DNA of 64,000 nt from Soehngenia sp. (GTDB lineage: Bacteria > Bacillota > Clostridia > Tissierellales > Tissierellaceae). The stretch covers positions 1-64,000 of the forward strand of contig JAGXFX010000009.1 of NCBI GenBank assembly GCA_024637045.1. Reading direction: 5' to 3'. Of this stretch, positions 48,393-63,093 are shown one piece after another. Position numbers and translations under genes: made by a program. How positions within the stretch are numbered: position 1 is the stretch's first letter; every line of letters starts with the position of its first letter. The notes beneath the pieces are model-generated. The model was given only the letters and a program-made list of their open reading frames with translations. It was not told the DNA's origin and did not search any database.

Positions 48393-49097
48393 ATGAGTTA
48401 CTCGACTATGGTGAAGGAAAGTATGAATCAGTACCCGGAGCTTAAAATAATTGATGCAAAGCAAGTTTATAATCGTAAATTTAAGAATGTACCTGAACAA
48501 GCTTTTTATAAGATTATATCTCGTATGGCAAAAGATGGAGACATAGAAAGACTGACTAAAGGTATTTACTGTAAGCCTAAGCAGGGAAGGTTTGGTAGAA
48601 TAGTCTCTTCTGAAAAACATATTCTAGAGTATTACCTTGGTGCAAACATGAAAAATGGAGTTGTTGTCGGTTATAGAATGTACAATGAGTATAAATTGAC
48701 AACACAGGTATCAAAGCTGATTGAAATATATTCAAATGTGAGTGAACAAGAAAAAAAGAAAATTAAGAATATAGAGATTAAAAAAGCAAATATAAAATTT
48801 GATGATTCTACAAAAAAAATGATTGAATTGCTTCACTTTCTGGAGAATATGAATAGAATTGAAGAGTTGAGCAGAGATAACGCTACTGTATTTATTGATA
48901 ATGCTGTTGGATATTATAATGAAAAGACCATTGATAAGATTATTAATACAATTAAGTACAAGAAAAGCACTCTTGCTTCTCTGAAAAACATCTTAGACCA
49001 CTACGAAATTAACCACACAGTCGAAAAATATCTAAATGGAACTTCAAAATATAATGCTATTAGAATGGAGGACTTATATGAATCTGCATCACAATGA
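48393..49097 (+). CDS. AbiEi/DUF6088-like antitoxin-type transcriptional regulator
   Basis: QAFYKIISRMAKDGDIERLTKGIYCKPKQGRFG, typical AbiEi wHTH region. Confidence 0.75.
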   Translation: MSYSTMVKESMNQYPELKIIDAKQVYNRKFKNVPEQAFYKIISRMAKDGDIERLTKGIYCKPKQGRFGRIVSSEKHILEYYLGANMKNGVVVGYRMYNEYKLTTQVSKLIEIYSNVSEQEKKKIKNIEIKKANIKFDDSTKKMIELLHFLENMNRIEELSRDNATVFIDNAVGYYNEKTIDKIINTIKYKKSTLASLKNILDHYEINHTVEKYLNGTSKYNAIRMEDLYESASQ

Positions 49098-49192
49098 AGA
49101 AACACTTCAAGAACTTATAGAGTTGACAACAAAACGTTATCATCTTCCTTCAAGTTATTGAAGATGAGTTACTCAAAAATTGGAACTCAACC
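49078..49192 (+). pseudogene. Truncated AbiEii-type nucleotidyltransferase toxin gene start (MNLHHNEETLQELIELTTKRYHLPSSY*)
   Basis: Overlaps antitoxin end as in AbiE operons; stops after 27 codons. Confidence 0.6.
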
Positions 49193-49221
49193 AAAAGGCT
49201 CTACTACCAAGAATAAATAAT

Positions 49222-49279
49222 TAATGCACTAAATTACCCGCACTAAAATAGTGAATGCGGATAATTTAGTGCATTTTAA
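49222..49279. terminator. Long hairpin TAATGCACTAAATTACCCGCA...TGCGGATAATTTAGTGCATT
   Basis: Inverted repeat with arms of about 19 bp. Confidence 0.65.
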
Positions 49280-49402
49280 TATAGACTGTGAATGTCATAA
49301 GCAGTTTATTGGTATTTAAAAGCCGAAGCTGGAGTTGTTATCGATGATGTGAACCCAGAGTGGATCTAATTATCTAATTGATCTGCTATGACAAAAAAAT
49401 AA

Positions 49403-49540
49403 TGTAACAAAATAATTTTAAATGTAACAATCAAAATGTTATATTTGAAGTCAAAAAGTTAAATTAACCTAATGTAACAAAAATAACTTGCAATATAACA
49501 AAAATGGTGTTATATTTAAAGTGTGAAATGTTACATTAGG
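49403..49540 (+). promoter_or_regulatory. Operator array of TGTAACA/TGTTAYA motifs with TTGCAA-N17-TATATT promoter
   Basis: TGTAACA at 49403, 49423, 49473; perfect 12-bp inverted repeat CCTAATGTAACA (49468-49479) / TGTTACATTAGG (49529-49540). Confidence 0.75.
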
Positions 49541-49551
49541 AGGTGATTTAA

Positions 49552-50529
49552 TTGGTCATGACAGCCGAGCCTTACTTGAAAGAAAATATCGATGAACAGC
49601 TTACAATAAAACCGTGGCTTAAAAAGAATAATTTTCCAATTTTTTTAAGGGATAGCTACAACTTCTATGAGATGACGATTCTTGGGACACGGTGTATTTT
49701 ACTAGAAGTCGTTGATGAGATGCCAAATATCGACCAGCTTCAAAAGCATATGAAGCAAATTAAAAACCTAACGGATCGTCAAATTGTTCTGTTTTACAAA
49801 GATATCACGAGGTATAGAAGAAAAAGTCTGATTGAAAACAGGATCGCCTTTGTGATTGAAGATGGACAGATGTATTTGCCATTCTTGGGACTTGATTTGA
49901 AAAAAGCCCAAGAACATGTTGAAGATAAAGTGAAGAGCTTCACAACACCTGCGCAGATTGCGTATTTGTACTTCTTGTATCATAAAGAGGAAGTTGTGAA
50001 CACGACTGAGTTTGCAAAAAAGTTGGGATTTAATAAAATGACAGCTTCTAGAGCATTAAATGATCTATACCATGCGAATCTCATCACCTATAAAATTGGA
50101 GGAATGACTGGCCGCAGCAAGGAGTATAAGAGGATTCCAGACCCGGACTACTTTCTAAGAGGTCGTGACTATCTGAAGACACCGGTGAGAAGAATCATCT
50201 ACACAAAGACAAAGCCTTTAGGTGCTTTGGCTGCTGGAATGGATGCATTGGCAGGATTATCCATGATCAATCCACCTGATAATCCGATTATGGCAATAGA
50301 TAGAAATAAGCTGAATAAAGAGCAGGTTGAAATTGTTAAAAATAAGGACCTTATAAAAGATACAAAACTGGTGGAGCTAGAGCTTTGGGACTATGATCCT
50401 GGACTGTTTTCTAATAATCGCCATGTGGACCTACTGTCTTTGTATGCGTCTTTGAAGGAAGAAACTGATGAAAGGGTTGAGCAGGCATTAGAGGAAGTCT
50501 TGCGAGGTGAGCCATGGTACACGGATTAG
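49552..50529 (+). CDS. wHTH-containing antitoxin-like regulator partnered with downstream AbiEii-type gene
   Basis: Internal HTH TTEFAKKLGFNKMTASRALNDLYHANLITYKIGG; overlaps next gene by 16 bp. Confidence 0.7.
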   Translation: MVMTAEPYLKENIDEQLTIKPWLKKNNFPIFLRDSYNFYEMTILGTRCILLEVVDEMPNIDQLQKHMKQIKNLTDRQIVLFYKDITRYRRKSLIENRIAFVIEDGQMYLPFLGLDLKKAQEHVEDKVKSFTTPAQIAYLYFLYHKEEVVNTTEFAKKLGFNKMTASRALNDLYHANLITYKIGGMTGRSKEYKRIPDPDYFLRGRDYLKTPVRRIIYTKTKPLGALAAGMDALAGLSMINPPDNPIMAIDRNKLNKEQVEIVKNKDLIKDTKLVELELWDYDPGLFSNNRHVDLLSLYASLKEETDERVEQALEEVLRGEPWYTD

Positions 50530-51281
50530 AAAAATTTAAAGAGTATTTTGGAGATCATACAAGTCAATATGTCTTTATTGGAGGAACAGCTTGCGATATT
50601 CTTATGGATGAAATTGGAGCTCCATTTCGAGCAACCAAGGATCTGGATATGGTGCTCATCATTGAGGCTCTAGATTCCTCATTTGGGGAAACCTTCTGGC
50701 AATTCATAGAAGATGGAGGATATGAGTATCGTGAGAAGGGAACGGGTGAGAATCAATTTTATCGTTTTACTGAACCGAATGATTCATCCTTTCCCAAAAT
50801 GATTGAACTCTTCAGTAAGCTTCCTAATGATTTTGAACTTAGTTTCGATAGAGGACTGACTCCCATTCACATTGATGAGAGCATCGTCAGTCTCTCTGCA
50901 ATATTGTTAAACGATTATTATTACGATCTATTAGTAGAAGGGAAACGGACGGTGGATGGCTATTCACTAATTGAAATCGAAACAGTCATCCTGTTTAAGA
51001 TTAAAGCATGGCTGGATATGAAAGAACGAAAAGAAGCCGGAGAAGATATCGATACAAAAAATATAAGGAAACATAAGAATGACATCTTTAGGCTTCTAGC
51101 CAATGTATCTCCCACAAGTAGGATTGAACCCTCAGCAGAAATTCAAAATGATGTCATTCAGTTCATTGAACAAATCAAGGAAGATAAACCTGATTTGAAG
51201 AACTTAGGTATTAGAGGTACAAATTTTGATGAAATGCTGGAGATTCTAGGGGATATATTCTTAGGGAAAGCAGAAGCTTAA
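50514..51281 (+). CDS. Nucleotidyltransferase AbiEii/AbiGii toxin family-like protein
   Basis: YVFIGGTACDILMDEIGAPFRATKDLDMVLIIE nucleotidyltransferase motif. Confidence 0.8.
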   Translation: MVHGLEKFKEYFGDHTSQYVFIGGTACDILMDEIGAPFRATKDLDMVLIIEALDSSFGETFWQFIEDGGYEYREKGTGENQFYRFTEPNDSSFPKMIELFSKLPNDFELSFDRGLTPIHIDESIVSLSAILLNDYYYDLLVEGKRTVDGYSLIEIETVILFKIKAWLDMKERKEAGEDIDTKNIRKHKNDIFRLLANVSPTSRIEPSAEIQNDVIQFIEQIKEDKPDLKNLGIRGTNFDEMLEILGDIFLGKAEA

Positions 51282-51324
51282 ACAAAAGCCCACTAGTGCT
51301 TAATAAAATTGAGGAGTGATTCAG

Positions 51325-51876
51325 ATGGGAATGCTTATGAACAAAGAAAAGTTGCTACAAATATTTGACTATCTAAATGAAAGACTCTATGAGAATCAGC
51401 TCCAACTTGAAATAACTTTTATATATGGATCTATTATGACAATGGTGTATGACAATAGACCTGCTACAAAGGACATAGATTGCGTGTTTAGTGAAAGTAA
51501 TAATAAAATATTAAATAATATTCTAGATTTGACAAAATTTGCATTTAATTTGAAAGATGGATGGATTAATGAGGAAATTAAAGAACCTCTAAAAGAGATT
51601 ATCAGAGAAGATATAGAAACCTACAGAGTGTATTCAAATCTTAAAATTCTTAAGCCAAAAGCTGAGCAATTGTTAGCGATGAAGATACTTGCTGCAAGAA
51701 CTGAACCAGCCAAGGATTTTGTTGACGCATACATTTTGTGTAAGGAATTGAGAATAAGCACGAAAGAACAATTAATGGAAACCATACTTCGATTCATTCC
51801 TATTAATGCGCTTGGCGAAAGGCAAATTTCTTTTATAAAGTATTTGGGGGAGGACTTGGGATATGATTGTGAATAA
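51325..51876 (+). CDS. Nucleotidyltransferase-like protein (DUF6036-type)
   Basis: FIYGSIMTMVYDNRPATKDIDCVF; KPKAEQLLAMKILAARTEPAKDFVDAYIL. Confidence 0.7.
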   Translation: MGMLMNKEKLLQIFDYLNERLYENQLQLEITFIYGSIMTMVYDNRPATKDIDCVFSESNNKILNNILDLTKFAFNLKDGWINEEIKEPLKEIIREDIETYRVYSNLKILKPKAEQLLAMKILAARTEPAKDFVDAYILCKELRISTKEQLMETILRFIPINALGERQISFIKYLGEDLGYDCE

Positions 51877-52240
51877 ATACTTATCAGAGCTCTATAAAAC
51901 CGTCGATGAAGACACAGCTCTTAACCAGATTATGGAAATGTTAAAAAGCAATGATATTGAGTTTATTGAGAGTCTTAAAACTCCTATTTACCTTGAGTTG
52001 TGTGATACAAATGAGTTAGTGCACCTAACCAAAATTGCCGCCATACTTGACTATATTCTACAGTTAAATGGGATTGAAGTTCCTAGTTGGGTAAGAGATA
52101 AAAGGCTAGCTTTTCAAACACCATATTACCATTCAAGTAGAATTAGTGACTTTGAAAAAATCAGGCTAATATACAGTAGTCCTGCTCCCTTCAGGGCAAG
52201 GAATGTATATTTCGACTTGGATGCATTGACCAGAATTTAG
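51863..52240 (+). CDS. Small hypothetical partner of the nucleotidyltransferase, overlapping it by 14 bp
   Basis: Overlapping ORF; a decayed second copy exists at about 52530-52650. Confidence 0.65.
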   Translation: MIVNKYLSELYKTVDEDTALNQIMEMLKSNDIEFIESLKTPIYLELCDTNELVHLTKIAAILDYILQLNGIEVPSWVRDKRLAFQTPYYHSSRISDFEKIRLIYSSPAPFRARNVYFDLDALTRI

Positions 52241-52736: not shown

Positions 52737-54518
52737 TTGACGTCTAAGTACGAAGATTTTTTAAATGAGTTAGTAATATTAGAGAAGAAATATCTATTGT
52801 ATTCTCGTGGCCATGATTTTGTGAATCAAGCCGCTTTGGATCTGCTTAGAACTATTGGGGAAATACATAATGGTACTACGAGTATCAGAATAGTGGATAA
52901 TGGATACAATCTGGTCATTAACGATGTGAAGTTTAATGAGAACAACATAAAAGCATCATACCTTTCGCAGCTACTTGGTGGTCGAGCTATCAACTCCGTA
53001 ACATTCCTACCTGGGGTCGGATTTTCTTCCATGATGGATTTTCTGTATCTGTTGAATGCCATACCAAACAATAGTAAGCTTTTATATCATACGGACATTC
53101 AGTTTGCCATTCATAATATTGATTCAATCAAAGTTGAAGAGATTGATTATGGTAGACTTAGATATGGATACGGAGATGAAGCCCAAAACCAATCTGGGGA
53201 TGAAAAAAATATCAAAATCCAGCTTTATGAGTCTTTGAAGACTATCAATCCAAATATTGAGAATAGCGATACCAATGAACTGATAGACATTGCCCTGGAA
53301 GAGTTATCCAAAATGTCTCGGACTGAGGGGACAGATTTTTTACAGGGGCTAACAGACGATGTGCTTTCGGAGATGATTGCAAGGGTAAAAGCTAAAGAGA
53401 ATTCCATATCTCCTTCACTGATTGACCTGCTTGTTGCAATGGATTCAGCCAGAAAACTCTCAGGGAATGACAGTTTAGAGAAATCATTTGACGAGATAAG
53501 CTATGACCAAGTAAACAAGCTAGTTGAGAGGGAAGCATATGAATTGTATGTTTCTGAAGATTATAGACAGCATCTTAGGAGCTTGCTGTCATATGATAGT
53601 CAATCCATGGACAGCAACACCGAAATTGATATGTTTGACAAAACCCTAATCAATAGAACGATTTTAACGGCACTTATACAACTAACAAAGAACAAATTGG
53701 ATAATAAAATGCATTTGAGCTTTGTAGAGAGCATACATAAGTATCTTGACGAGTTTATTGACGGTAATGACTGGCAATTCATCCGTTCAATGACAAGTGA
53801 CGAGTTGGTATGTTCATATCTGGAGCAGGATTCGACGGTGCTGAGAATGTCCGAAGCAATAAGGAGCAGCAATTCATACAGAGACAATAATTTGGAGGAG
53901 GTCATTAAGGTTAGTGGTCCAAAAAACCTATACTGGATGTTGGATTCTTACATAAACGAAGAGAATTTTAGTACAAGAAGAGGTATTCTAAATCTAATCC
54001 AGTCGTTCCAGGAGACTGCAGCCATTCATGCTGTCAAAAGGTTCTTAGGAGACCCAACAATTGAGATATCAAAGTGTATGCCAATAATTAAGGAGCATGC
54101 AGGTTCAATTCCAAAGGAACTGTCGTCAAAGCTGTTTACCTGTGATTCTGCAGATGCCAAGCTGTTGGCAATGAGAATCCTGCTAACCCAGAATGATGAA
54201 AGTGTTAAGAATGACATTGATCGGATTATTCAAAATGGTGAAAGTGATATGATTTTTGGGGTACTTGATTTGATTAGGGAGTTTAGAATCACGGAACTAA
54301 GTGGTACTCTAGTTGATAGGATCAGTACCTTTTACATCAATGAGAGTAAGTTTAAGTTCATAGTGAAGACAATCGATACCATCTCTTGGATAGATTCCAG
54401 TGCATTTAGGGAACTGGAAAATAGATTGATGAGAAAGAGACTTACGATATCGCCGAAAAAACTTAGGAGAATCAAAAAGTATTTAAAAGGAGTCAGCCAT
54501 GATCATAAATCCAGATAG
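52737..54518 (+). CDS. Large hypothetical protein, helical-repeat-like C-terminus, shares N-terminal domain pattern with the next gene
   Basis: 593-aa ORF; N-terminal KKYLLYSRGHDFVNQAALDLL...; C-terminal repeat-like helices. Confidence 0.7.
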   Translation: MTSKYEDFLNELVILEKKYLLYSRGHDFVNQAALDLLRTIGEIHNGTTSIRIVDNGYNLVINDVKFNENNIKASYLSQLLGGRAINSVTFLPGVGFSSMMDFLYLLNAIPNNSKLLYHTDIQFAIHNIDSIKVEEIDYGRLRYGYGDEAQNQSGDEKNIKIQLYESLKTINPNIENSDTNELIDIALEELSKMSRTEGTDFLQGLTDDVLSEMIARVKAKENSISPSLIDLLVAMDSARKLSGNDSLEKSFDEISYDQVNKLVEREAYELYVSEDYRQHLRSLLSYDSQSMDSNTEIDMFDKTLINRTILTALIQLTKNKLDNKMHLSFVESIHKYLDEFIDGNDWQFIRSMTSDELVCSYLEQDSTVLRMSEAIRSSNSYRDNNLEEVIKVSGPKNLYWMLDSYINEENFSTRRGILNLIQSFQETAAIHAVKRFLGDPTIEISKCMPIIKEHAGSIPKELSSKLFTCDSADAKLLAMRILLTQNDESVKNDIDRIIQNGESDMIFGVLDLIREFRITELSGTLVDRISTFYINESKFKFIVKTIDTISWIDSSAFRELENRLMRKRLTISPKKLRRIKKYLKGVSHDHKSR

Positions 54519-55608
54519 AAACGACCATATTTTGCCTGATTTGTTAGGGGCAATCAACTCCATAAAATTATACTCTCACAATCATCCTCAAGCAATATCG
54601 TCTGTGGAGCAGGTAATGGACAGGCTTGGCGAGGTTCTCGAAGCTGAAGACAGACTGATTGTTGGCGTATACAACGACAACATGTTGGTTAATCAAAAGC
54701 CGGTTGTGGGAATTGGAAGAGTATCCGAGTCCATGGTTCGTGTACTGAATGAGGTGGGCATTGACCAGATTGTGTTTTTGAAAGGCTTGGAAAAGGAGGA
54801 ACTATCTGTTTTTCTAACAGAGACATTCGGAACAAGTCCAGGTAATATGGGTTTTTCTGATTATGCACATATATTGCTGGGGAAGATCTCTACAGATGAA
54901 AGTACAGACAATGATAAGACGGTTGATTCGATTATGAACTTGGATTCATCCCAGAATTTCACCGGGATGCTGCAGAATCTCGATTTTCAAAAGTCCTTTG
55001 ACTTCAATACGGTTAAAAACCTCTCCGTGAATTTGGTTGATACTTTCAGATATTCTGCCAGCCCATTGAAATACCTGGCTGAAGTCAAAAGTGAGGATGA
55101 ATACACCTACGTGCATACCATCAATGTAGCACTGCTCTCCATGTCCTTGGCCAAGCACATAGGCATAGCTGGATCGGAGTTGTTGGATATCATTTATGCA
55201 GCTTTGATGCATGATGTTGGGAAGATGCTCGTTCCAAAGGAGATACTGAACAAAACAGGGCCGTTGACACCCGATGAATTTGAAACAATCAAATCCCATA
55301 CTGTAAAGGGGGTCATGTATCTGTGCAATCAGAAGGGAATACCAAGAATATCCATTTTAGCTGCCTTGGAGCACCACATCAAATACAACGGTGGCGGATA
55401 CCCTAACATAACAAATAGCTGGAAACCTCATTTTGCAAGTCAGATCATAAGCATTGCGGATATATATGATGCACTGAGAAGCAATAGACCATATCGAGCC
55501 CGGCTTGAACATGACCAGATTATTGGAATATTGCGCCACGATGCCGGAATCGGACTAAATCCTAGATTGGTGGAGGTTTTTATAGATATGCTTGATAAGG
55601 GGATATAA
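54499..55608 (+). CDS. HD-GYP-like phosphohydrolase domain protein with N-terminal LYxxxHP domain
   Basis: ALMHDVGKMLVPKEILNKTGPLTPDEFETIKSHTVKG and HHIKYNGGGYP; overlaps previous gene by 20 bp. Confidence 0.85.
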   Translation: MIINPDRNDHILPDLLGAINSIKLYSHNHPQAISSVEQVMDRLGEVLEAEDRLIVGVYNDNMLVNQKPVVGIGRVSESMVRVLNEVGIDQIVFLKGLEKEELSVFLTETFGTSPGNMGFSDYAHILLGKISTDESTDNDKTVDSIMNLDSSQNFTGMLQNLDFQKSFDFNTVKNLSVNLVDTFRYSASPLKYLAEVKSEDEYTYVHTINVALLSMSLAKHIGIAGSELLDIIYAALMHDVGKMLVPKEILNKTGPLTPDEFETIKSHTVKGVMYLCNQKGIPRISILAALEHHIKYNGGGYPNITNSWKPHFASQIISIADIYDALRSNRPYRARLEHDQIIGILRHDAGIGLNPRLVEVFIDMLDKGI

Positions 55609-55661
55609 ACTAAATGGCCCCCCACACTACATGGAGAACCATTTAAACTTAAGGGACTATA

Positions 55662-56258: not shown

Positions 56259-57338
56259 GTGATTAAGGTGAAAGATTTCAATTACAGAGAAATGAACAGT
56301 GAGTTGATGGTCCTTGAAATTATGAACTTGGTTTCAAATATCCATGAATACAGGGGTAAGCAAGAACTGTTTGTGAAAGCAAAACCAGATATACTGTATG
56401 CCATGCAGGATGTAGCTAAGATTCAAAGTACCGGTGCTTCAAATCGAATTGAAGGCATATTCACTTCCGATGCAAGGCTTGAAGAGCTGGTTTCAAAAAA
56501 AGCGGAACCGATGAATAGAGACGAAGAGGAGATTGCTGGATATAGGGAAGTTCTAAATACAATACATGAAAATTGCGATTATATCAGTTTGAAATCAAGT
56601 GTGATTTTACAATTGCACAGAGATCTTTATAGTTTTCATCCATCCGCCAATGGTGGACGATATAAGAATCAAGACAATATCATAGAGGAAGTAGACGAGA
56701 AAGGAACTCGTCGAACTCGGTTTAAACCACTATCCGCTTTTGAAACTCCAGAAGCAGTGGAAAAATTATGCGGTAACTATAATGAAGCAATAAATGATGG
56801 AAGAATTGATCCGTTAATTTTAATTTCAAAGTTTGTCTTGGATTTTTTGTGTATTCATCCATTCAATGATGGTAATGGAAGAATGAGCAGACTAATAACA
56901 CTTTTGCTTCTATACCAACAAGGCTATGTTGTAGGAAAGTATATTAGTGTTGAGATGCTCATTGAAAGCACTAAGGAAAGCTATTATGAGACCCTTCAAG
57001 AAAGTTCAATAGGTTGGCACGAAAACGAAAACAGTTATCTACCTTTTATTGAGTATTACCTTGGTGTCCTACTAAAAGCATATAGGTTATTTACTGAGAG
57101 AGTAGAGACTGTGTCGGTAGATAAACTGGGCAAATCCGAAAGAGTTAAAGATTTATTCGATAAGAAGGTTGGCAAACTTTCAAAGCGTGAGATAGCAGAC
57201 ATTTATCCCGATATTAGTGTTACAACCATTGAAAAAGCACTTTCTGATTTACTAAAAGATGGATACATCATAAAAGTTGGATCAGGTAGAGCAACTGCAT
57301 ATGTTAAGATTACAGATTCGCAGGAATATGAGAAGTAA
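56259..57338 (+). CDS. Fic family protein with N-terminal inhibitory motif and C-terminal wHTH
   Basis: HPFNDGNGRMSRL Fic motif; SNRIEG matches the [S/T]xxxE[G/N] inhibitory motif; C-terminal SKREIADIYPDISVTTIEKALSDLLKDGYI. Confidence 0.92.
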   Translation: MIKVKDFNYREMNSELMVLEIMNLVSNIHEYRGKQELFVKAKPDILYAMQDVAKIQSTGASNRIEGIFTSDARLEELVSKKAEPMNRDEEEIAGYREVLNTIHENCDYISLKSSVILQLHRDLYSFHPSANGGRYKNQDNIIEEVDEKGTRRTRFKPLSAFETPEAVEKLCGNYNEAINDGRIDPLILISKFVLDFLCIHPFNDGNGRMSRLITLLLLYQQGYVVGKYISVEMLIESTKESYYETLQESSIGWHENENSYLPFIEYYLGVLLKAYRLFTERVETVSVDKLGKSERVKDLFDKKVGKLSKREIADIYPDISVTTIEKALSDLLKDGYIIKVGSGRATAYVKITDSQEYEK

Positions 57339-57552: not shown

Positions 57553-58041
57553 ATGACCAATGAAGAATTTCAAAGGATAGTGCTGGAGGAGTTACGGGAT
57601 CTGAAGGTAGGTCAAAGTAAGCTTGAAGACAGGATGGGAAGCCTTGAAGACAGGATGGGAAGCTTTGAAGACAGGATGGACAAGCTTGAGGAAGGACAGA
57701 AGAAGCTTGAAGTAAGAATGGACAAGCTTGAGGAAGGACAGAAGAAGCTTGAAGTAAGAATGGACAAGCTTGAGGAAGGACAGAAGAAGCTTGAAGTAAG
57801 AATGGACAAGCTAGAAAATCGGATGGATAACCTTGAAGGAAGAGTTGGAAATCTTGAAGAGGGTCAAAGAAGAATTATTCATAGATTGGATGGAGTTATT
57901 GAGCAGACTGTAGATCTAACTGAATTTAGAGAAGAAACCAATTCGAAGCTTGATAGGATAATAGAGGAAAACCAGGTATTCAAGGAAATACTAGGTAGAC
58001 ATGAGGTTGATATAAGAATGATTCAAAAAAGGATAGTTTAG
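57553..58041 (+). CDS. Coiled-coil protein with tandem amino-acid repeats
   Basis: LEDRMGS x3 then DKLEEGQKKLEVRM x3. Confidence 0.85.
   Translation: MTNEEFQRIVLEELRDLKVGQSKLEDRMGSLEDRMGSFEDRMDKLEEGQKKLEVRMDKLEEGQKKLEVRMDKLEEGQKKLEVRMDKLENRMDNLEGRVGNLEEGQRRIIHRLDGVIEQTVDLTEFREETNSKLDRIIEENQVFKEILGRHEVDIRMIQKRIV
57679..57804 (+). repeat. In-frame 42-bp tandem repeat, 3 near-identical copies
   Basis: GACAAGCTTGAGGAAGGACAGAAGAAGCTTGAAGTAAGAATG at 57679, 57721, 57763. Confidence 0.95.
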
Positions 58042-59392: not shown

Positions 59393-59510
59393 TCATGCTA
59401 AGACATATGTAATTAACTCCATAGTGTTGTTAACTGCATCTATTCGGGTATTAAGGATAGTAGGGATAAAAACAAGAACTGTTTATGATAGAAGGGTATA
59501 GGTGAGCTTA

Positions 59511-60980
59511 ATGAAAAAGCTAATAGTTGTTCTAGCAGGGTTGATTTTAATAGTATGGGGGATGTTCTTTTTTATGAACAGGCAGCCTCAAACTCCAGAG
59601 CCTGTTGATCAAATACCAATAGATGAGCCTGACACAGGTGAGATTGAAGCACCGGTTGTTGCTGATGATTCAACACTTCCAATCCCACCACTTCTGGAAG
59701 ATACAGATCCCTCGCCTGATAGGGCTGAATTCCGGATTATTGCGCAAAATGGCATCAAGGAATTTGTCCCTGGAGTTCAAACAGATACCATGGGATACAA
59801 TGGCAATTACCTTGGTCCTGTAATCAGAACTAGAAGGGGAGAAGATGTAGCTATAAATATTGAGAACAGAATAAATGGTGAGATGACAACAATACATTGG
59901 CATGGACTTGAAGTTGGTGGCGAAGATGATGGAGGGCCACATTCAGGCATTCAGCCTGGAGAAACCTGGACTCCGGAGTTTACAATCGACCAGCCGGCTG
60001 CTACCCTTTGGTACCATCCTCATCCAGAATACAATACGGGAAGACAGGTATACAAAGGTTTGGCAGGTTTGTTCATTGTTGATGATGAAGTGTCGGATTC
60101 ACTTGACATACCGAAAGATTATGGTGTGAACGATATTCCACTTGTAATACAGGATAAGAGATTCCGTGAAGATGGAAGCTTTGAATATATTCTGTCAGGG
60201 CCTGATATTATATTTGGTCTTCAGGGGAATGCAATTATAGTAAACGGTGAAATTGAACCATATCTAAACGTTGAAAAAGGACTTATGAGATTTAGGATAC
60301 TCAATGGTTCCAATGCGAGTATCTTTGAGCTTAGGCTGGATAATAACCAGAGTTTTCATCAGATAGCATCAGACGGAGGATTTTTGGAAGAGCCAGTTGA
60401 AATGAACAGACTCCTACTTGGTCCTTCTGAAAGAGCTGAGATTCTAATAGACTTCTCTGACTACGAAGACGGAGAAAGAGTTAGACTTGCCAACCAGGAC
60501 TGGAACTTTATGGAGTTTGTGGTTGATGGCGATAGAGAAAATGATTTATCTGTACCCGTTAGCCTTGCTGAGATAGATAGGATCAATCCGCAGGATGCAT
60601 CAAGAATCAGGGAGTTTGTATTCCTAGGGATGGGACCAAGTGTGAATATAAATGGAAAACAGTTTGATATAGACAGGATTGATGAAGTCGTAAGTCTTGG
60701 CGATACTGAAATTTGGGAGGTATCCAACCAGACCGGAATGGGTATGATGGGAGGAACTATACATCCCTTCCATGCCCATGGAACACAGTTTCAGATTCTT
60801 GACCGGGATGGAAATCCGCCACCAGCCAATGAAACTGGCTGGAAGGACTCATTTATTGTATATCCAGGAGAGACCGTAAGAGCTATTGCCACATTCAAAA
60901 AACCAGGAGTATTTATGTACCATTGCCATATACTTGAGCATGAGGATGCTGGCATGATGGGTCAGTTTCTGGTTGAATAA
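59511..60980 (+). CDS. Multicopper oxidase, N-terminal membrane anchor
   Basis: TTIHWHGLEVGGEDDGGPHSGIQPG, LWYHPHPEYNT, HPFHAHGTQF, MYHCHILEHEDAGMMGQF copper motifs. Confidence 0.94.
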   Translation: MKKLIVVLAGLILIVWGMFFFMNRQPQTPEPVDQIPIDEPDTGEIEAPVVADDSTLPIPPLLEDTDPSPDRAEFRIIAQNGIKEFVPGVQTDTMGYNGNYLGPVIRTRRGEDVAINIENRINGEMTTIHWHGLEVGGEDDGGPHSGIQPGETWTPEFTIDQPAATLWYHPHPEYNTGRQVYKGLAGLFIVDDEVSDSLDIPKDYGVNDIPLVIQDKRFREDGSFEYILSGPDIIFGLQGNAIIVNGEIEPYLNVEKGLMRFRILNGSNASIFELRLDNNQSFHQIASDGGFLEEPVEMNRLLLGPSERAEILIDFSDYEDGERVRLANQDWNFMEFVVDGDRENDLSVPVSLAEIDRINPQDASRIREFVFLGMGPSVNINGKQFDIDRIDEVVSLGDTEIWEVSNQTGMGMMGGTIHPFHAHGTQFQILDRDGNPPPANETGWKDSFIVYPGETVRAIATFKKPGVFMYHCHILEHEDAGMMGQFLVE

Positions 60981-61008
60981 TGAAAGACATTAATAAGGAG
61001 TGATTTTG

Positions 61009-63093
61009 ATGAACAAGGAAGATAAGAATATGAATGAACAAGATGAACACCAAGAACACAAGAATCATGATGAACACAATAATCATGATGAACACAAGGA
61101 TCATGACGAACACAAAGATCATGATGAACACGAGGATCATGGCAATCACGGAGATCATGGAGATATGGTAAAGGATTTTAAGAGACGTTTCTTCATCTCT
61201 TTAATCATAACCCTTCCAATTATTGTATTGTCTCCAATGATTCAGGGCTTTCTTGGAATTGAGTGGGGATTTGCCGGTGACATTTATGTCCTCTTTGGAT
61301 TATCCACTATTGTATTCTTCTACGGTGGTTGGCCATTTATAACAGGAGCAAAGGATGAGCTAAAGGACAAAAGTCCTGGAATGATGACCCTGATAGCCCT
61401 AGCAATTACCATTGCATATGGATACAGCAGTTTGGTTGTATTTGGCTGGGATGGTAATCAGTTGTTCTGGGAGCTTGCAACACTGGTTGACATTATGCTT
61501 CTTGGTCACTGGATTGAGATGAAATCAGTAATGGGTGCATCAAATGCATTGGAGGAACTTGTAAAGCTGATGCCAAATGAGGCACATAGACTCGACGGAG
61601 ATGGGAATGTTGAGGATGTACCACTTTCTGAACTGAAAAGCGAGGACAGAGTTCTTGTAAAACCCGGTGAAAAGATACCTGTTGACGGTATTATTGTTGA
61701 TGGAGAGTCTGCAGTTGATGAGTCAATGCTTACAGGGGAATCTGTTCCCGTTGAGAAGAAAGAGGATGACGAAGTAATCGGTGGTTCTGTCAACAAGGAA
61801 GGATCTTTAACAGTTGAGGTTAAGAAGACAGGAAAGGATTCTTACCTTTCACAGGTTATTACAATGGTTAAAGAGGCACAGGAATCAAAATCAAAGACAC
61901 AGGATATTACAAATCGTGCTGCCAAGTGGCTGTTTTATTTGGCCTTATCTGCAGGATTCATAACACTGTTTGTATGGCTGTCACTTGGATATGAGTTTGA
62001 TATGGCGCTTGAGAGAATGGTAACTGTTATGGTCATTACTTGTCCCCATGCTTTGGGGCTTGCATCACCTCTTGTTGTTGCTGTATCAACAACACTTTCA
62101 GCAAAGCAAGGTCTTCTTATCAGGAACCGGGCCAACTTTGAAGGCGCAAGAAATCTTGATGCAGTTGTATTTGACAAGACGGGGACTCTTACAAAAGGTG
62201 AATTTGGCGTAACCGATATTGTACCATCTGAAGGATATGAAGAGGATAATGTATTAAGAATAGCAGCAAGCTTAGAGCAAAACTCTGAGCATCCAATAGC
62301 AACAGGGATTGTTAATGAGGCCAAGGAAAGGGAAATCGATCTTGGAGAGATTCAGGAATTCCAGTCACTAACTGGAAAGGGGATCGAAGGTAAGGTTGAT
62401 GGAGAGAAAATTAATGTAGTAAGCATTGGATATGTACAAGACAAGGAACTTTCATATGACGAAGAACATTTTAACAAGATGAGTGAAGAAGGAAAGACGG
62501 TTGTATTCGTACTTCTTGAAGATGAGTTAATCGGTATGATCGGGGTTGCTGATATGGTGAGGGAGACTGCCAAGGAAGCCATTGCAACCTTGAAGGAAAT
62601 GGGAATACACTCAATTATGCTTACAGGTGACAATCAGAAGGTTGCAGACTGGGTTGCCGACCAACTTGGCTTGGATGAAGTTTATGCTGGAGTACTTCCT
62701 GATGATAAGGCAAATCAGATCAAGAAAATCATGGATAAGGGTTGGAAGGTTGCCATGACAGGAGATGGTGTTAACGATGCCCCTGCTCTTGCAACAGCTG
62801 ATCTTGGTATCGCAATTGGTGCAGGAACCGATGTTGCAATGGAAACTGCTGATGTGGTTCTTGTAAAGAGCAATCCAAATGATGTTGTAGCATTGATAGA
62901 CCTATCAAGAAAGACCTACAGAAAGATGATCCAGAATCTGTGGTGGGCTACTGGATACAATATTATTGCAATACCACTTGCTGCAGGAGTTCTCGCTCCA
63001 TGGGGAATAGTTCTTAGTCCTGCTGTTGGTGCAATATTAATGAGTATGAGTACTGTAATTGTTGCAATAAATGCAAAGATGTTAAAGGCATAA
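61009..63093 (+). CDS. Copper-translocating P-type ATPase, CopB-like (CPH motif)
   Basis: [53 protein letters not shown]; His-rich N-terminus. Confidence 0.94.
61063..61164 (+). repeat. 18-bp in-frame repeat encoding NHDEHN/DHDEHK-type His-rich units
   Basis: Six consecutive 18-bp units (last one partial). Confidence 0.85.

Follow-up and report, generated by a model that had tools for sequence, protein, structure and literature searches.

A HEAT-like solenoid protein and an HD-GYP-type phosphohydrolase that share an N-terminal domain are encoded as a conserved gene pair in several bacterial phyla

HD-GYP proteins are usually interpreted singly, through the sensory domain to which they are fused. 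In PmxA, which like V-cGAP is an HD-GYP protein specific for 3'3'-cGAMP, the residue responsible for specificity is reportedly a glutamine. The described proteins to which we compare the present locus are PmGH (4mcw), RpfG, V-cGAP3 (5z7c), Bd1817 (3tm8), and DvhD. DvhD of Desulfovibrio binds c-di-GMP but does not hydrolyze it, and both its HD and HH metal ligands have been lost (PMC13090378). Bd1817 is a binuclear HD-GYP protein that has no activity on c-di-GMP and in which the tyrosine of GYP is missing (PMC4159591). The same paper gives a rule by Bellini et al., under which a Y or F at the position of PmGH residue E185 leads to the expectation of a binuclear site, and it names Y-T-Y among the corresponding cluster motifs (PMC4159591). 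Our literature search for HD-GYP proteins associated with HEAT repeats found nothing relevant, although subscription papers fell outside of this search and may contain an earlier description. Thus, the combination of HD-GYP signaling with a dedicated, domain-sharing HEAT partner is apparently new here, in agreement with the first-pass annotation, which had proposed an undescribed pair.

The two genes

The pair is located on the plus strand of the window, which is the entire 64,000-nucleotide stretch of DNA that was analyzed. The first gene (52737..54518) begins with TTG and encodes a 593-aa HEAT-like solenoid protein, while the second (54499..55608) begins with ATG and encodes a 369-aa HD-GYP-type phosphohydrolase whose best solved relatives are PmGH and V-cGAP3. 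As had been noted previously from the sequence, the two ORFs overlap by 20 bp (54499..54518, plus strand), and the identical 20-bp overlap occurs in the orthologous pairs of two congeneric genomes (G001 and G002), where the HEAT orthologs are 66-70% identical to the window protein. No orthologs of the pair were found in a third congeneric genome (G003). The arrangement suggests that the two proteins are made together through translational coupling.

The 593-aa protein has no Pfam match above cut-off. Its AF2 model nevertheless predicts an all-helical solenoid at aa 154-592 (53196..54512, plus strand), interrupted by low-confidence stretches at aa 243-272 and 286-299, and Foldseek aligned it to PDB solenoids at only E ~1e-3. 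Among the 55 HEAT family members, 52 match Pfam HEAT_2, a feature that the family shares with the HEAT_2/PBS-lyase HEAT repeat proteins; the window member itself has no such match, being too diverged for recognition, and the N-terminal domain lies outside of any Pfam HEAT family. In the 369-aa protein, HD_5 matches aa 198-350 (E=1.3e-18, above the gathering score), and all 52 of its relatives contain an HD_5/HD domain. The original description of a helical-repeat protein next to an HD-GYP enzyme is supported, with the former specified as a HEAT-like solenoid. In the HD protein, an N-terminal domain (aa 8-128; 54520..54882) is followed by a disordered segment (aa 133-147), a helical linker (aa 148-196; 54940..55086), and the HD-GYP catalytic domain (aa 198-366; 55090..55596), all on the plus strand.

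A shared N-terminal domain in a family of paralogous pairs

The N-termini of both proteins are uncovered by any Pfam or NCBIfam family in our scan of the two. The first-pass annotation had aligned them as a single domain by pattern from the two window sequences. Since pairwise BLASTP misses the common start, yielding only an insignificant N-terminal match of 23 residues, this was a pattern call that could not be proven from two sequences; hhalign with 3-sequence profiles likewise returned a probability of 21.6%, albeit with the alignment at the expected place. The domain itself is real, however. When a profile was built from eight HEAT proteins alone, its positions 17-124 matched the N-terminus of the window HD protein (E=1.9e-11), and the comparison of 66 HEAT N-domains with 66 HD N-domains by hhalign gave a probability of 99.85% (E=1.5e-30, 125 columns). 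The AF2 models of the two proteins, which were built from two separate alignments (pLDDT ~90; mostly >90 in the HEAT N-domain, aa 2-135, 52740..53141, plus strand), also show matching rather than unrelated folds. Both follow the element order a-a-b-b-a-b-a-b, to which the HEAT version adds one short strand and one short helix. The elements of the HD protein are H8-24, H30-49, E52-58, E61-64, H74-86, E90-94, H99-110, and E125-128, and in the HEAT protein they are H2-21, H27-44, E50-54, E59-61, E64-66, H71-82, E85-90, H96-108, H119-126, and E131-135. Thus, the HEAT and HD proteins begin with one common domain that is absent from Pfam.

The consensus of the domain is LYPxxHP...FAxxLxxxGIxxxTFxxGLxxxELxxF...HI. 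In 52 relatives of the HD protein, the residues corresponding to Y25 and H29 never vary, and the same tyrosine is invariant in 55/55 HEAT proteins. None of the 107 family members matched a Pfam model recognizable as the N-domain, no NCBIfam model for it was present among the proteins scanned, and searches of the PDB by sequence and by fold returned nothing recognizable for it, with the Foldseek lists being dominated by the HD domain and helical repeats. A single match to Octarellin (E=2e-4) was taken as chance, as this is a designed protein. In a tree of the N-domains, the HEAT-side and HD-side copies are mostly separate, with 14 of 132 misplaced in what is a short alignment.

Relatives of the HD protein were sought in one genome per species. 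Full-length relatives were found in Desulfobacteraceae (L035), Nitrospirae (L036), an Actinobacteria MAG (L037), and Coriobacteriia (L038 and L041), and each of these loci has, immediately upstream, a gene for a HEAT-like protein of 723-746 aa that shows the same N-terminal pattern. The HEAT profile matched 95 of 148 genomes from the phylum of L036 (E<=1e-10) as well as 43/247 and 9/150 genomes from the phyla of L035 and L038, respectively (both E<=1e-30), but these are not counts of pairs, because some of the matches are merely generic HEAT proteins. Among the unique loci examined, 68 N-domain HEAT genes immediately precede an N-domain HD gene, as do five further HEAT genes in which the N-domain was undetected. 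In comparison, none of 11 HEAT genes from Bacillota that are generic, lack the N-domain, and are unrelated to the pair do so. A search of 12 genomes with the N-domain only produced 57 matches, 54 of which fall into 27 adjacent same-strand pairs. The distance between the HEAT and HD genes is centered on zero, with 52/68 within -30..+30 bp and 20/68 at exactly -4, a spacing like that of translationally coupled genes. It is also frequent for one genome to contain several paralogous pairs. Therefore, paralogous copies of the pair make up a family that spans several phyla, and the side-by-side occurrence of this two-gene set in distant bacteria argues for a real and apparently undescribed signaling unit. 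With matching N-terminal folds and joint conservation of the two genes, the first reading of a pair with one common domain stands. The HEAT and HD trees are strongly correlated (mirror-tree r=0.90; best of 1000 permutations 0.13), which linkage alone could also yield.

Nine N-domain HEAT genes were listed without a partner, two of which are artifacts. At L215, an apparent HEAT-N-domain-HD fusion is a 923-aa frame that runs on because of high GC content, whereas the HEAT gene occupies a frame of its own that overlaps it. At L175, an overlapping or broken frame caused the HEAT gene to appear partnerless, even though the HD gene is present. This leaves five to seven solo N-domain HEAT proteins (L224-L228, plus L213 and L205), which means that an HD partner is not strictly required for the domain. 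Those of L224-L228 are Actinobacteria-type proteins of ~840 aa, and at L224, a frame matching an AMP-binding enzyme adjoins the solo gene on the opposite strand. There was also one large N-domain protein of at least 710 aa (L147:1441-3570; the frame is 879 aa) without a recognizable HEAT or HD domain.

The HD-GYP active site and possible function

By alignment with PmGH, the window HD protein retains seven of the eight PmGH metal ligands (H189, H221, D222, H250, H276, H277, and D305) together with the equivalents of K225, D308, and R314. In the order H...HD...H...HH...D, the ligands are H206, H238, D239, H267, H292, H293, and D321, with roles assigned from PmGH (PMC4159591). Across 52 proteins, six of these ligands are invariant and H238 is present in 51, the catalytic lysine K242 is invariant or nearly so, and the GYP triad (G300, Y301, and P302) is found in all. 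Differences from PmGH, RpfG, and V-cGAP3 include the novel N-domain, the near-constant HEAT partner, and two substitutions: the PmGH R192 position is N in all 52 proteins, and the E185 position is Y in 50/52, so the E/D of the trinuclear (E/D-T-G) subgroup is absent. In the window protein, this segment is Y202-T203-Y204, so that the position of the third metal is taken by a tyrosine. The rule of Bellini et al. assigns the window protein to the Y/F subgroup, expected to be binuclear, whose Y-T-Y motif it matches, whereas the text that we consulted makes no mention of the HEAT partner, the N-domain, or the EHHx signature described below (PMC4159591).

The first-pass annotation had drawn attention to an odd HD motif and suggested that the chemistry of the enzyme may differ. 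The motif is indeed present, as the full HHExxDGxGYP consensus is absent and the window HD protein instead has EHHIKYNGGGYP (aa 291-302; 55369..55404, plus strand), with a glutamate before HH and none after. In a tree, all 72 N-domain HD proteins group into a single clade (support 0.998) relative to 89 other HD-GYP domains taken from the same contigs and the window genome, which is a partial sampling. A glutamate follows HH in 0/72 members of the clade versus 88/89 of the other HD-GYPs sampled, which makes the odd motif a hallmark of the clade; the position is occupied by L, M, I, or A, and 70/72 members have a glutamate before HH. The D-to-N change in the motif is a minor feature (11/72). As the metal site is invariant, the motif does not signify decay. 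Given the missing consensus, the proteins count as a variant subgroup of the HD-GYP proteins, to which they belong by fold, metal site, and GYP. The suggestion of altered chemistry therefore has evidence on both sides: the loss of the HHE glutamate, which is an E-to-I change in the window protein, extends across the clade, so activity or specificity could differ, while the catalytic lysine and the full set of seven metal ligands persist, so hydrolysis is still the best guess from the sequence.

The main rival to a hydrolytic enzyme would be a receptor similar to DvhD, in which the HD protein binds a cyclic dinucleotide without hydrolyzing it and the HEAT protein serves as its output partner. 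DvhD is among the best structure matches and shares the HD-GYP fold with the window protein (Foldseek E=3e-8), and a change in catalysis would be in keeping with the clade-wide absence of the HHE glutamate. However, DvhD has PAS and dCache domains and lacks the HD and HH metal ligands (PMC13090378), whereas the window HD protein keeps its metal site. The ligands, lysine, and GYP are (nearly) invariant among 52 proteins, which argues for selection on catalysis, and we consider the receptor unlikely. Bd1817 was another structural match (Foldseek E=6e-7, 331 columns), and its sequence match begins only past the N-domain (query 129-329).

On balance, we think it probable, if only somewhat so, that the locus encodes a translationally coupled cyclic-dinucleotide phosphodiesterase and a HEAT scaffold, which are joined via their shared domain into one signaling unit that was horizontally acquired. 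The N-domains would join the two proteins into a heteromer. Judging from its intact metal site and homology, the HD protein would be a binuclear-type HD-GYP phosphodiesterase that hydrolyzes, or at least binds, a cyclic dinucleotide, with c-di-GMP the most likely substrate and 3'3'-cGAMP a possible one. The HEAT solenoid may serve as a scaffold or output arm, coupling the turnover or binding of the nucleotide to a client protein. A bolder version, which we offer only tentatively, is that of a two-protein device found as paralogous pairs in several phyla, in which the new domain pairs a HEAT scaffold with this HD-GYP clade and the swapped glutamate (EHHx rather than xHHE) confers another nucleotide specificity or a partner-dependent activity. 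In G001, a gene for a membrane GGDEF protein starts ~100 bp past the HD gene (L033:7216-8880), which hints weakly at c-di-GMP; this neighbor is absent in both the window and G002, and is therefore found in one of three congeners. The window genome contains 23 GGDEF matches and 13 HD_5 matches.

The N-domain could instead be a ligand sensor that responds to one small signal in both proteins, rather than a joining device, although this seems improbable to us. The domain occupies the usual place of sensory domains in HD-GYP proteins, has the invariant tyrosine and histidine described above, and exists in solo HEAT copies, all of which would suit a sensor. Conversely, the location of nearly all of its copies (54/57) in adjacent pairs is a better fit to heteromer formation than to ligand sensing, and the two roles are compatible with each other. 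An HD-GYP clade with its own active-site signature and a separate HEAT partner bearing the same uncatalogued N-domain recurs in several phyla, with multiple copies in a genome. Should the two partners assemble into a complex, cyclic-dinucleotide control would here take a recurrent form, with a partner, rather than a fused sensor, setting the activity or output. Many hypothetical proteins annotated as 'HEAT repeat' or 'HD domain' thereby gain a testable function, and the sequence signature predicts which HD-GYPs belong to the clade.

Genomic context and origin

The N-domain was found in 0/398 other Bacillota genomes, and L192 and L193, two loci of the L035 phylum, supply the closest relatives of the window proteins in both the HEAT and the HD tree. 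From these two results, the pair was probably acquired as a unit, and the most likely route into the Gudongella-like host lineage is horizontal transfer from a relative of Desulfobacterota. Pairs on plasmids or phages were searched for and not found, and a mobile-element reading was dropped for want of plasmid or phage matches. A defense role of the anti-phage or toxin-antitoxin type, which was raised in the first-pass annotation and would suit both the horizontal gain and the position of the window pair, which is flanked by an AbiE-like gene on one side and a Fic gene on the other, is highly improbable, because neither protein matches a PADLOC model meaningfully (the one match, to Cas10 HD at E=0.005, is at chance level), strong PADLOC matches near the pair, among the matches listed, each come from a single neighbor (mainly a UvrD-family helicase), neighbors elsewhere are mostly housekeeping genes, and the pairs are chromosomal, present as several paralogs per genome in several phyla, and co-inherited within lineages.

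The genes flanking the pair vary by lineage, with Obg, purine synthesis, UvrD, and helicase genes among the housekeeping neighbors. No common neighbor offered a functional clue across loci beyond lineage-specific genes, for example those for UPF0182 and a small PF0610-like protein. A UPF0182 membrane protein is encoded directly downstream of the pair in the Actinobacteria/Coriobacteriia-type loci L037, L038, and L246, while in L235-L237 (L036 phylum), the next gene downstream encodes a small PF0610-like HTH and zinc-ribbon protein, with an Obg GTPase upstream in two of them.

Several other features of the window were also observed. An RNA-family search gave no match. The stop codon of the HD gene is immediately followed by a 17-pair inverted repeat (55610-55646) with a T-rich tail on the minus strand. 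The region upstream of the pair (48393-52240) begins with a gene resembling the AbiEi antitoxin (PADLOC AbiEi E=4e-94), after which come a MarR-like gene and uncharacterized genes, one of which is weakly AbiEii-like; the genes for 186-aa and 125-aa proteins at 51316-52240 are also upstream of the pair in G001. The Fic protein is encoded downstream at 56259-57338 (Pfam Fic E=2e-16; PADLOC SoFic E=4e-34), and the region 57553-58041 encodes a 162-aa coiled-coil-like protein composed of repeated EDRMxxLEEGQKKLEVRMDKLE units. A copper-handling cluster occupies 59502-63093 and consists of a multicopper oxidase gene followed by one for a P-type metal ATPase whose N-terminus is rich in His.
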